Shown here one piece after another: positions 3,887 through 8,553 of a DNA stretch of 64,000 nt. Every line of letters begins with the position of its first letter. Position 1 is the first letter of the stretch. The stretch covers positions 732,001 to 796,000 of the forward strand of contig NZ_AP024601.1 in NCBI RefSeq assembly GCF_018326425.1, read 5' to 3'. The notes beneath the pieces were generated by a model that did no database searches, was not told the origin of the DNA, and was given only the letters and a program-made list of their open reading frames with translations. Both the position numbers and the translations under genes were made by a program. This stretch comes from Polycladomyces abyssicola. GTDB lineage: Bacteria; Bacillota; Bacilli; Thermoactinomycetales; JIR-001.

Positions 3887-3911
3887 GCCTCACTACATAA
3901 AATGTGAGGCG
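3887..3911 (-). terminator. intrinsic terminator for the RNPP cassette
   Basis: GCCTCAC / GTGAGGC stem. On the minus strand it is followed by TTTTCTTTTTC, so it would end the leftward transcript of the HTH-TPR gene and its small peptide ORF. Confidence 0.6.
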
Positions 3912-3999: not shown

Positions 4000-4146
4000 T
4001 CAACCAATCAATGACTTGGGATCACCACTGTTAGGGAATACATCGGCCGTGACTGTAGAATGCCAAACATTGATGTCGACAAGGTGTGAAATTGACAATG
4101 TTACTACGATGAAGGCTACCAACATAATGAGTCTAGAGTATGTCAC
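4000..4146 (-). CDS. candidate secreted signalling pre-peptide (Phr-like), 48 aa
   Basis: Starts with GTG at 4146, 9 nt after an AGGAGG box that lies inside the 3' end of the regulator gene, and overlaps that gene by 14 bp. The product has a short basic start (TYSR), a hydrophobic core LIMLVAFIVVTLSISHLV and a polar C-terminal tail ending NSGDPKSLIG. A Sec signal followed by a short exported tail, translationally coupled behind an HTH-TPR receptor, is the standard arrangement of RNPP signal genes (phr, nprX, papR). An ATG at 4182 in the same frame would give 60 aa, but it lacks the positioned binding site. The mature signal is inferred to come from the C-terminal 5-10 residues. No homologue is recognised by sequence. 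Confidence 0.6.
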   Translation of the reverse strand: MTYSRLIMLVAFIVVTLSISHLVDINVWHSTVTADVFPNSGDPKSLIG

Positions 4147-5461
4147 TGTAATCTCCCTCCTCACCCATTTTCTCCAAAGCAACTGCTACTTCAAACATAT
4201 TTTCCAAGTAGGCCGCAAATTCCTCTTTATTTTCGTTTCTTTTTAGTTGGGCGAGACGGAAAAGTGCTTTATGTTCCAATCTTGTGTGATGGTATCTACG
4301 TGCTAAATCCAGTGCTTTTTGGTAGAAATGAATGGCTTGATGAGATCGTCCCTTTTTTTTGTAAAAATCGCCAATAACGGTGTAAGCAAAAAATGAAGAA
4401 AGAGCATCGGTTTGTTCTGCGAGAGTTTCGGTTTTGTTCAGTATGTTTTGAGCTTCTTCCCAACGTTCTTGTTCCATATAGACAATAGACAATTTGGAAT
4501 AAGCTTGAACCAGTACATTTTTGGAATCCGTGTTGCCAAACGATAGAGCAGTCGTCAGACAGACTTCGGCTTCTTCGAAGTTCTTCATTGCCAGATAGGT
4601 ACTCCCCAATGCCGTCCATAGATAAAACAATGAAAGCTTGTCCCCATTCAGACTGGCCAAGTATATTCCTTCTTTGGCATACTGGATCGCTTCTTCATAC
4701 ATTTTGTTTCGTTTGAATAGATAAACACGGATTTCATAAAGATGAAGAGCGGTATTATCGTCCATCTCATCGATATGATTCCACAACTCATTCACGACTT
4801 TCAATGCATCTCCCAATCTTCCCAATTTTTCGAGATAACGAGCCTTATTACAATTAATAATATACTTATAATGTTTATATCCGCCTTCATCGACAAATGC
4901 ATCTTCAGCGTTTTCCGTATATTGAAGTGCTTGAATTAAATCATTTTGATAATAATAACAGATACCGAGATCGCTGAAGCTACGAGCCTCTATATTGTCT
5001 TTTTGACTGTAGCGACTTGTAGCGGATAGACGAATCGCATTCAAAAAACATTTCTCCGCTTTTTTCCAATCGGACTTTTTGCTGTGGCATTTTCCTTTTA
5101 GGTAATGAACATGGGCGGCGTATTGATGATCGTCACCCAGTTGAAGGGCGTTCAGAAGGTTGATTAATTCGTTGGGATCTCCGTAGTCTAACATTGATTC
5201 AATCGACAGCAAGCGCAACTTCAACCGATCCAGTTCATACTCTTCATTCTCAATGATCTGGGGGATATCATCCATGGTGAGACCCAATTTCTCAAGAAGG
5301 TACATTACCTTATCCATGCTGACGTGGGGAACGCCGCGTTCGATATTGCTGACTGTGGCGGGGGAGATGTTTTCATCTGCTATATCTTCCAAACGGAGAC
5401 CACGATCTTTCCGAACTTTCCGAATCAGGGAGCCAATTTGAAGAATATCAAATTCGCTCAT
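4133..5461 (-). CDS. RNPP-type regulator: XRE HTH plus TPR repeats
   Basis: 442 aa. Residues about 5-65 form an XRE-type helix-turn-helix (IGSLIRKVRKDRGLRLEDIA, SPATVSNIERG). The rest is a superhelix of about nine TPR repeats (for example AKEGIYLASLNGDKLSLFYLWTALGSTYLA). This is the architecture of PlcR/NprR-like transcription factors that bind imported oligopeptides with the TPR domain. It starts at ATG5461 behind AAGGGG, with a GTG three codons upstream. A secreted-peptide ORF overlaps its 3' end. It is divergent from the kynurenine operon, with about 300 bp between, so it may control itself, kynU or distant targets. Confidence 0.85.
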   Translation of the reverse strand: MSEFDILQIGSLIRKVRKDRGLRLEDIADENISPATVSNIERGVPHVSMDKVMYLLEKLGLTMDDIPQIIENEEYELDRLKLRLLSIESMLDYGDPNELINLLNALQLGDDHQYAAHVHYLKGKCHSKKSDWKKAEKCFLNAIRLSATSRYSQKDNIEARSFSDLGICYYYQNDLIQALQYTENAEDAFVDEGGYKHYKYIINCNKARYLEKLGRLGDALKVVNELWNHIDEMDDNTALHLYEIRVYLFKRNKMYEEAIQYAKEGIYLASLNGDKLSLFYLWTALGSTYLAMKNFEEAEVCLTTALSFGNTDSKNVLVQAYSKLSIVYMEQERWEEAQNILNKTETLAEQTDALSSFFAYTVIGDFYKKKGRSHQAIHFYQKALDLARRYHHTRLEHKALFRLAQLKRNENKEEFAAYLENMFEVAVALEKMGEEGDYSDIL

Positions 5462-5768
5462 GCGGGACACCCCTTTTTATTCCATTCTCTAATTACTCCT
5501 ATCATACATGAACTTTCACTATTTGGAAATAGGGTGAGTTAAAAAAAAGTGATTGAGAGATATATTTTTGATGAGGAACGGGAGAGAGAGGGGAACACGA
5601 TTAAATGATCTTCTCTCGTTCAAACAAGCATGAAAAAGTTTCAGAGTGGAATTGATTCAATATCTACACGGTGAACACGAAAAAAAGGAATGGGGCCCGC
5701 TTCGGCATGACACGTTGTCGGGTTCATCGTATACTGGACATAGAAATTGTCAGAAAGGGCTGTATACA

Positions 5769-7055
5769 ATGGATGTTTCCTCTTTTGACCCGACGTATGA
5801 ATGCGCCCTGCGTTTGGATCGCCAGGATGAGCTGTCTTCATTTCGCGATGACTTTTACATCCCGGAGGGGACGATTTATTTGGATGGCAACTCACTAGGT
5901 TTACTGTCCAAGCGGGCTGAACAATCACTACTGGAGATGTTGGAGTCGTGGAAGAAACTGGGGATTGAAGGCTGGACCCAGGGACGGTATCCGTGGTTTG
6001 ATCTGTCGGAACGATTGGGGGAAATGTCCGCTCCCTTGATCGGAGCTTCTCCCGAGGAAGTGATTGTAACCGGTTCTACGACGGTCAATCTGCATCAGGC
6101 GGTGGCCACTTTTTATCAACCCCGGGGTGGAAGAACAAAGATTTTAGCGGATGAACTGGCCTTCCCCACCGATATTTATGTTTTGCAAAGCCAAATCAAA
6201 TGGAAGGGGTATGATCCTGAGACACATTTGGTCAAAGTAAAAAGTCGCGACGGCCGTTTCATCGAGGAAGAAGATGTTGTTGCCGCCATGACCGACGAGA
6301 TCGCGTTGATCGTGCTGCCCAGTGTGTTGTACCGGAGCGGACAAATTCTCGACATGAAACGGCTGACGGAGGAAGCGCACCGACGGGAAATTCTCATCGG
6401 TTTCGATTGCTGCCATTCCATCGGTGCGATCCCGCATGCGTTGAGTGAGTGGGGCGTTGATTTTGCCGTTTGGTGTAACTACAAGTACCTGAATGCCGGC
6501 CCGGGAGGAGTGGCTGGACTGTATGTCCATCGCCGGCATTTTGATCGCACACCCGGCTTGACGGGATGGTTCGGTTCGCGTAAGGATCAACAGTTCGACA
6601 TGGCCCATACGCTGACCCTTGCCGAACACGCCGGCGCTTACCAGCTGGGAACACCGCACATTTTGAGCGCCGCCCCCCTGATCGGTTCATTGGAAATGTT
6701 TGCGGAAGCGGGCATTGACCGGGTACGCCGAAAATCACTGCAACTGACACATTATCTGATTTTCCTCATCGAACGGGAACTCATCGGATATGGATTTATG
6801 ATCGGAAGCCCGCTGGAGTATCACCGTCGCGGCGGACACGTCTATCTGGAACACCCCGAGGCGGCGCGTATCTGTAAAGCATTGAAAGCCAACGGTGTCA
6901 TCCCCGATTTTCGCGCGCCGAACGGAATTCGTTTCGCTCCGGTTGCGCTCTACACAACCTTTGAGGAGATTTGGAAGTGTGTTCAAATCCTCAAGGAGAT
7001 CATGGAGACGGGACTATACAAGCAGTATGAAAATACACGGGATGTGGTGGCTTAG
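5769..7055 (+). CDS. kynU: kynureninase
   Basis: 428 aa PLP enzyme cleaving L-kynurenine (or 3-hydroxykynurenine) to anthranilate (or 3-hydroxyanthranilate) and alanine. The PLP lysine is K239 in [11 protein letters not shown]. Other family landmarks are [13 protein letters not shown] at the N-terminus, GFDCCHSIG with the cofactor-binding Asp, and [15 protein letters not shown]. Length is normal. ATG5769 is chosen because AGAAAGGG precedes it; the frame is open to 5646 but that stretch is not family-like. First gene of a three-gene kynurenine operon. Confidence 0.95.
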
Positions 7056-7097
7056 GGCGCGTTTGGTCATCCATATTCCGACGAGAGGAGAATCAGC

Positions 7098-7718
7098 ATG
7101 AAATGGTTGGATATCTCACAACCGTTGAGCAATGACATCGCGGGATGGCCGGGAGATACGCCGTTTTCGTTTGCGTTGTCGTGGACCATGGAGTATGGTT
7201 CCGTCAATGTCGGCAAGTTGACGATGAGCACGCATACGGGAACACATGTCGATGCGCCGTTTCATTTTGATGATACGGGCTACAGAGTGATGGAGCTGGA
7301 TATCGAGGTGTTTGTGGGGCCTGCACGCGTGATCGACGTCTCTTCCCATGAAAGTGTCGGTGCCGAAGAGTTGTCCGCCTATGATCTGGAGGGGGTCAAG
7401 CGATTGTTGTTGCGGACACGTCCCGTATCTGACCCGACGGTGTTCCCCGGTACCATTACCTATGTGCGGCCGGATGCCGCCGCCTATTTGCATGAAAAAG
7501 GGGTGCGGTTGCTCGGAGTGGACGTGCCTTCCGTAGACCCATTGGACAGTAAGGAGTTGGCGGCGCATCACGCCCTGTTTCGATACGGGATTTGCATTTT
7601 GGAAAACGTGGTGTTGGATCGAGTCCAACCGGGTGATTACGAGTTGATCGCCGTGCCGCTCGCGCTCCGAGATGCAGATGCCAGCCCGGTCCGTGCGCTG
7701 TTGCGTCCGTATGAATAA
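7098..7718 (+). CDS. kynB: kynurenine formamidase (arylformamidase)
   Basis: 206 aa cyclase-family metal hydrolase that converts N-formylkynurenine to kynurenine and formate. The family motif [12 protein letters not shown] (residues about 49-60) supplies metal ligands, and further acidic and histidine residues lie in [23 protein letters not shown] binding site lies 7 nt before the ATG. It sits 42 bp after kynU and 13 bp before kynA, so the three steps tryptophan to anthranilate plus alanine are encoded in one operon. Confidence 0.95.
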
Positions 7719-7731
7719 GGGGGTGTATGTG

Positions 7732-8553
7732 ATGCATGACGAAAAAGGGATTCACACCGATTTTCGCGATCAGATGACCTACGGGGAGTACCTGCAGTTG
7801 GACCGTATTCTGTCCGGGCAGCAACGCTTGTCCGGCCATCATGACGAGATGCTGTTTATTGTCATTCACCAGGTGAGCGAACTCTGGATGAAATTGATGT
7901 TGCACGAGATTCAAGCGGCAATCCAATGTATCCAAAACAGGGAGCTGTCCCGCGCGTTCAAGATGTTGGCCCGTGTTTCCAAAATTCAGTCCCAGATTAT
8001 CCAGTCATGGGATGTCCTCTCCACCCTGACTCCCGCCGAATATCTGGAGTTCCGTGACCAATTGGGCCGGGCTTCCGGTTTTCAATCGTATCAACACCGG
8101 ATGATCGAGTTTGCCCTCGGGTATAAAACCCGGCACATTTTGGATATCTATCGAAAAGATGCGGAACTGTACCGACAGTTGCATGAAGCACTGCATGCCC
8201 CGAGCCTCTACGATGTCGCCATCCAGGCGTTGGCCCGAGCGGGTTTGGCCATTCCCCCTGATGTGCTCAACCGGGACTATACCCAGCCTTACCAAGCGCA
8301 CCCCAGTGTGGAAGCGGCTTGGCTGGCGGTATATCGCGATGTGGAATCCTATTGGGACCTCTACCAACTGGCCGAAAAGCTGGTCGACCTCGAAGACTGG
8401 GTGCGGCAATGGCGCTTCCGCCATGTGACTACAGTGGAGCGCATCATCGGCAATAAGACGGGAACGGGCGGTTCTTCCGGCGTCCAATACCTGAAAAAGA
8501 CGCTGGATCACCGGTTCTTTCCCGAGCTGTGGGGTCTTCGAACAAAGTTGTGA
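7732..8553 (+). CDS. kynA: tryptophan 2,3-dioxygenase
   Basis: 273 aa heme enzyme that opens the indole ring of L-tryptophan to N-formylkynurenine. Recognised by [52 protein letters not shown] (substrate and heme pocket) and the C-terminal [15 protein letters not shown]. The start is ATG7732 behind AAGGGGGTG. Last gene of the kyn operon, followed by a strong terminator at 8595-8629. The operon may serve tryptophan catabolism; genes for anthranilate processing are not in the window. Confidence 0.95.

Follow-up and report, generated by a model that had tools for sequence, protein, structure and literature searches.

A very likely peptide quorum-sensing cassette of the RRNPPA kind, a TPR receptor gene overlapped by a pre-peptide ORF, in Polycladomyces abyssicola and its relatives

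A gene for an XRE helix-turn-helix and TPR receptor and a small ORF overlapping its 3' end very likely constitute an RRNPPA-type cassette of two genes for peptide quorum sensing. The cassette is real and probably functional, and is best read as a member of a lineage-specific RRNPPA-type subfamily with many paralogues; we infer quorum sensing itself along with export, processing, binding and targets. The basic design is already known; the surprise is a lineage-wide proline-centred peptide pattern together with a near-constant DNA-reading head and promoter. The host is presumably a thermophile of the order Thermoactinomycetales, whose members are mostly thermophilic spore-formers. Its strain JIR-001T originates from deep-sea sediment (PMC8210696). 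The window, meaning the whole stretch of 64,000 nucleotides that was analysed, corresponds to positions 732001-796000 of the single-contig genome of 3,197,230 bases. Its features at this locus, in window positions, are:

3887 to 3910, minus strand: hairpin GCCTCAC...GTGAGGC followed by a T-rich stretch, a possible terminator after the pre-pheromone gene (z -3.16)
4000 to 4146, minus strand: putative pre-pheromone gene with GTG start, 48 aa, Sec-like core (ORF; same layout in 58 of 100 homologous loci)
4012 to 4029, minus strand: coding stretch for SGDPKS, inferred to be the mature signal's core, with LIG after it (comparison with relatives, [EDNQ]P rule)
4133 to 5461, minus strand: XRE-HTH and TPR receptor gene, 442 aa, stop codon included (ORF, domain matches, AlphaFold model)
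4156 to 4161, minus strand: AGGAGG ribosome-binding site of the pre-pheromone, within the receptor gene (sequence; nine bases before the GTG)
5501 to 5529, minus strand: promoter-like element of the receptor, with -35 TTTCCA (5524-5529), a 17-nt spacer and -10 TATGAT (5501-5506) (motif search)
5511 to 5540, no strand assigned: imperfect 30-bp dyad AACTCACCCTATTTCCAAATAGTGAAAGTT, a candidate operator overlapping the -35 (11 of 14 arm positions, by eye)

The receptor starts with an ATG at 5461, an alternative GTG upstream at 5470 giving 445 aa, and ends with a TAG at 4133-4135. Its HTH_3 domain scored 29.0 bits against a Pfam cut-off of 23.0 and several Pfam TPR families were above their cut-offs, with no NCBIfam family above cut-off. 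The small ORF runs from a GTG at 4144-4146 to a stop at 4000-4002, overlaps the receptor gene by 14 nt and encodes the 48-residue product MTYSRLIMLVAFIVVTLSISHLVDINVWHSTVTADVFPNSGDPKSLIG. An in-frame TTG at 4182 would extend it to 60 aa; the GTG is favoured because the ribosome-binding site precedes it. Both genes had been described in an earlier note, which claimed a 442-aa XRE helix-turn-helix and TPR receptor and a GTG-initiated 48-codon ORF behind an AGGAGG box inside it, and domain matches and coordinates bear this out. As judged by hydropathy only, the small product holds a stretch of 11 residues with a value of 3.2 and a basic residue near its start; no Pfam or NCBIfam family matched it. 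The RRNPPA definition applied here includes a receptor of 250-500 aa with a TPR superhelix, as the 442-aa protein has, and a neighbouring pre-peptide gene that encodes 10-100 aa and lies at -60 to 400 bp (limits from PMC10075063), within which the 48-aa ORF with its 14-nt overlap also falls. A simple terminator scan listed nothing after the pre-pheromone gene, the scan having a loop limit of 8 and the hairpin at 3887-3910 a loop of 10.

Conservation of the pair was evaluated in 108 of 497 receptor matches from the same order, of which 100 were distinct and usable. A fixed test of start position, ribosome-binding site, basic start and hydrophobic core that ignored the C-terminus was passed by 58 of these 100 loci and by 1 of 500 shuffled sequences (approximately dinucleotide-preserving shuffles). 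Among the 51 long ORFs of the window, 50 were testable, one lying too near the window end, and only the receptor locus 4133-5461 passed. The small ORF starts at -14 nt relative to the receptor stop in 26 and at -11 nt in 17 of the 58 passing loci, and all 58 carry at least five of the six AGGAGG bases, as the test's own rule has it. The 42 failures include three of the five receptor paralogues of the own genome; eight of the 42 (L016, L018, L019, L024, L025, L065, L093 and L101) carry a weaker candidate, a similar ORF whose ribosome-binding site is weaker and whose tail contains a proline.

Within the own genome, overlapping pre-peptides were found at two of the five receptor paralogues, namely the window receptor (L001) and L002, whose pre-peptide ends PNTGDPTSG; the small ORF is accordingly not the companion of every paralogue. 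L004 and L005 have no pre-peptide by the fixed test. L003 (G000:C1:1156381-1157712) keeps the promoter element and only a remnant pre-peptide frame, and is perhaps an orphan receptor. The nearest orthologue, L006 of a sister species, shares 73% receptor identity and carries a longer overlapping pre-peptide with a different tail, composed of two head-to-tail copies of IKLDSDPRPA. The comparison of the same locus in relatives, which had been proposed as a check, thus found the small ORF kept with a variable tail in L006 and present at 58 of 100 receptors, an outcome that favours the earlier interpretation. In the sister genome G001, three further loci (L013, L014 and L015) were partial receptor matches, two of which lie right at a contig start.

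Across relatives the small ORF shows a coding pattern in which third-position changes are favoured. Differences at codon positions 1, 2 and 3 amounted to 999, 747 and 1286 over 2181 codons, counted for receptor pairs at least 60% alike that are not independent of one another and in protein-level alignments, so that frame retention is not separately gauged by these counts. For L001 and L006, the window's nearest pair, the small products are 28% identical and the corresponding differences are 26, 23 and 31, a slight third-position pattern.

The C-terminus, which had no part in the fixed test, proved to follow a common pattern. A proline lies within the last nine residues of all 58 passing pre-peptides. 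In 45 of them the residue before it is E, D, N or Q, in 45 exactly three residues come after it, and in 28 the residue that follows it is G. The dipeptide [DEN]P occurred in 40 of the 58 tails; when the last 20 residues were shuffled 1000 times, the mean was 10.1 and the highest count 21. The six residues around the proline give hexapeptide-like cores such as SEPGGL, SNPGSG, DDPAGG, GDPTLS and TEPRHG, and tails within the genus end GDPRSG (L007), GIPSHG (L008) and GEPSHG (L009). The window pre-peptide ends NSGDPKSLIG, with five residues after the proline, as is found in 2 of the 58. Compared with PNTGDPTSG (L002), PTMGDPRSG (L007) and the duplicated DSDPRPA (L006), the signal core of the window is probably SGDPKS(L) with LIG trailing, in which case the mature peptide may be internal.

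Paralogous signals differ within one genome, with six different sampled signals each in G010 and G009 and five each in G008 and G013. Tandem copies of the signal were observed in L006, L017, L029, L030/L032, L037, L051, L064/L067, L073 and L084, among others; QSEPGGL is found four times in L037 and NPGEY four times in L017. The pre-peptides of L064 and L067 hold six or seven TSAFPGP-like units behind a leader. Such multi-copy precursors would fit a signal, by analogy with Rap systems that have duplicated pheromones. Peptide similarity weakly tracks similarity of the receptor TPR part, beyond what permutation gives: TPR identity correlated with hexapeptide similarity at rho 0.20 (0 of 500 permutations as high), and at rho 0.15 for pairs below 50% identity (9 of 500 permutations as high). 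In several genera a receptor with an [EQ]PGGL-type tail precedes two genes that we take to be dapH-like and acetylornithine-type aminotransferase-like. At these loci (L121, L123, L124, L125 and L126, and also L029, L031, L034 and L035) the tail is conserved and the leader changes fast; this channel is perhaps the most conserved of the family.

These observations bear on three other readings of the small ORF. That it arose as an open frame by chance, or as an artefact of translation at the receptor 3' end, could be argued from its shortness and GTG start, and from the strong divergence between close receptors, as in the 28% identity and slight codon-position pattern of L001 and L006. The passing rate of homologous loci compared to shuffles, the third-position excess over all pairs, the common C-terminal pattern and the in-frame tandem signal copies all speak against it, and we consider it extremely unlikely. 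In some toxin-antitoxin pairs an XRE regulator adjoins a small hydrophobic ORF, a resemblance that would suit a membrane-active toxin or a small membrane partner under XRE control with no role as a signal. What recurs here, however, is the short polar tail and not the hydrophobic part, and the tails are tandemly repeated and vary with the TPR part of the receptor, which makes this reading highly improbable.

It could also be that the receptor mainly hears the peptides of other paralogues and that its own pre-peptide is losing function. Many homologues fail the pre-peptide test, L003 has no more than a remnant frame and the window tail departs from the usual length. The window locus nevertheless has its ribosome-binding site, reading frame, hydrophobic core and GDP core intact, and the sister-species orthologue also has an intact, albeit different, pre-peptide, and such decay seems to us very unlikely. 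The preferred reading is that of a receptor gene with its own signal precursor.

The fold of the receptor was evaluated with an AlphaFold model that had a mean pLDDT of 92.5 (alignment of 52 sequences) and showed helical hairpins between about residues 65 and 431, the repeats not being counted by program. The top VIA-align match was apo NprR (5dbk_A, Z 29.5, rmsd 4.3, 345 aligned residues, 15% identity), and further matches were NprR 4gpk_G (Z 27.0), Rap 4gyo_A and 8rsv_B (both Z 27.3) and AimR 6jg9_A (Z 20.8). The unrelated TPR protein 9gaw_O reached Z 27.1, which is 2.4 below NprR. Ordered by Foldseek E-value, LGN and other unrelated TPR proteins lead and apo NprR takes rank 38; it has the highest query TM-score, 0.62, among the best 50 rows. 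When solved structures were searched by sequence, engineered and eukaryotic TPR proteins led and Rgg structures matched through the HTH; Rap 6t3h_A matched the receptor profile through its TPRs (E 6.5e-9), and NprR was absent from the 29 rows of one search and from the best 60 of 190 in another. The modelled fold agrees with long-type RRNPPA receptors and would be closest to NprR and Rap; as TPR folds are common, such a fold is necessary and not sufficient for RRNPPA membership. Of the PlcR/NprR architecture assigned earlier, the long NprR/Rap-like type stands, given the 442 aa and the fold, and the short PlcR type does not. In RRNPP receptors a conserved Asn holds the peptide backbone (PMC6458997). 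Asn205 is kept in 58 of 58 receptors with a pre-peptide and in 34 of the 42 others, as divided by the fixed test; since three of the eight receptors in which it is replaced (L040-L042) are from one genus, fewer than eight events are involved.

The DNA-reading part of the receptors is far less variable than the remainder. In 31 chosen receptors mean pairwise identity was 0.74 in the HTH (0.84 in residues 32-48) compared to 0.41 in the rest. A common element consisting of a -35 TTYCCA, about 17 bases and a -10 TAnnAT was found in 99 receptor upstream regions. The motif log-likelihood was 613 at a width of 34, seeded by hand from an unseeded run (width 28, best 407), compared to 110-133 for three shuffled sets run from random seeds with fewer rounds. 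By in-sample site scores, 70 of the 99 upstream regions reached at least 12 bits, 68 of these with the site 60-111 bases ahead of the start codon, and none of the 99 reversed regions did. L001 and L006 share the 34-nt element without a difference, as part of an uninterrupted run of about 49 identical bases that also includes the dyad at 5511-5540; outside this run the two loci differ strongly on the far upstream side and little towards the start codon. Two further same-genus pairs conserve the element along with its flanks.

A pattern version of the element gave 21 matches in the own genome compared to 4 in a backward control. By ORF calls, 12 of the 21 are inside a long ORF and 7 have an ORF start at most 250 nt downstream. 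Four of these 7 are receptor paralogues at 28-39 nt, and three are other genes (L202, L208 and L214), none of which was judged convincing as a target of a wider regulon. The promoter of the fifth paralogue, L005, is unmatched by the genome pattern. A site at C1:270400 (L197) that resembles the one of the receptor was taken as chance; it lies inside a gene that we take to be alr-like, although the ORF script called it intergenic. No targets other than receptor promoters were recognised in this pattern scan of the own genome. The element is read as a putative autoregulatory site common to the paralogues; alternatively, it could be a conserved core promoter only.

Such receptors have multiplied in this lineage. 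Homologues at E<=1e-3 were found in all 42 searched genomes of the order, with 497 matches in total and up to 33 in one genome. Among 299 genomes sampled from the class, 27 had a match at E<=1e-25, all of them Thermoactinomycetales, and the other 272 gave none, at most five candidates being scored per genome. A profile search of genome contigs gave 58 loci plus MAGs called Bacillota or Thermoactinomycetaceae; a single-protein search of the same contigs gave no confirmed match. The named contigs with homologues, which we take to be Thermoactinomycetaceae, include those of Marinithermofilum, Paludifilum, Melghirimyces, Kroppenstedtia, Marininema, Lihuaxuella, Thermoactinomyces, Laceyella and Shimazuella. 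The receptor had no match in 50,697 phage records and none confirmed in viral contigs, and its seven plasmid matches are distant (22-26% identity); a mobile or phage origin was set aside on these grounds. One distant homologue (25% identity) is on a plasmid of Staphylospora marina.

The direct neighbours of the receptor are kynU, GGACT and DUF4424 genes. The divergent kynU (5769-7052, kynureninase by Pfam) is followed by two genes that are presumably kynB and tryptophan 2,3-dioxygenase. These tryptophan-degradation genes, at 5769-8553, lie divergently between the receptor and an MFS-like gene and are absent at this place in the sister genome (L188), which would reflect either an insertion here or a loss there. 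The divergent position of kynU had suggested the kynurenine operon as a dedicated target. This was rejected, as in L188 no kyn-like gene separates the receptor from a gene upstream of it that we assume to be MFS-like, and the receptor neighbourhood is thus not conserved.

In the proposed mechanism, a single transcript probably encodes both receptor and pre-peptide, and the pre-peptide would be translated from the AGGAGG within the receptor gene. It would then leave the cell by the Sec route, be trimmed to a short peptide around SGDPKS(L) and be re-imported by an oligopeptide permease; the own genome encodes seven SBP_bac_5 proteins. The peptide is predicted to sit in the TPR groove and alter the action of the N-terminal HTH on DNA, the first target probably being the cassette's own promoter, the -35 of which lies inside the dyad. 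Tentatively, and with the balance somewhat against it, the Thermoactinomycetales may have their own pheromone language, with cassettes that form a convergent network in which they sense different peptides while acting at each other's promoters. This reading rests on the many paralogous receptors, the different proline-centred peptides, the near-constant DNA-reading head and the common promoter element. If true, many channels would meet at one kind of operator in place of many insulated switches, and a shared operator, if real, would offer a naturally occurring example in which many signals converge on a single regulatory site. The results point to a bacterial order with a dense peptide-communication repertoire. 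It supplies dozens of candidate receptor-peptide pairs, whose pattern is simple to read, for specificity studies, and receptors from heat-loving species are offered for structural work.

In the literature on RRNPP systems and quorum sensing in Thermoactinomycetaceae and Polycladomyces, taken with the main text of PMC10075063, no study devoted to the subfamily was found. RRNPP_detector yielded 21 new candidate subfamilies, and its main text names Thermoactinomycetaceae once, for candidate systems beside biosynthetic clusters (n=4); its candidate clusters, e.g. cluster 8 of Paenibacillaceae, are likewise candidate RRNPP systems (PMC10075063), and the present subfamily may already be among them. 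A DPG motif has been noted for subfamily 08 and AimR peptides (PMC12700828). The PlcR subfamily has a short receptor with five TPRs (PMC12700828), unlike the 442-aa receptor described here with hairpins from about 65 to 431. The AimR-AimP arbitrium system is alike in its HTH-TPR receptor and hexapeptide, and in its signal GMPRGA three residues follow the proline (PMC6458997); it is, however, a phage system with a conserved RGA half (PMC6458997), and neither phage nor confirmed viral matches were found here. Rap-Phr of Bacillus and its phages shares the TPR fold, and its propeptides can hold several pheromones (PMC11343458), but Rap is without an HTH (PMC9765709), which the present receptor has. 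AloR-AloP of Paenibacillus polymyxa resembles the cassette in having HTH-TPR receptors, many paralogues per genome and C-terminal peptides; it belongs to another lineage and has a different signal core, the AloP13 signal being SHGRGG (PMC7425212). NprR-NprX of the Bacillus cereus group has the same combination of an HTH and a long TPR superhelix and gave the best structural match of the model. NprX is a short proline-containing peptide with the minimal active form SKPDIVG (PMC4970707), in contrast to the tail NSGDPKSLIG here, and the present receptors differ further from NprR by their many paralogues per genome and by an identity of 15% in the structural alignment.
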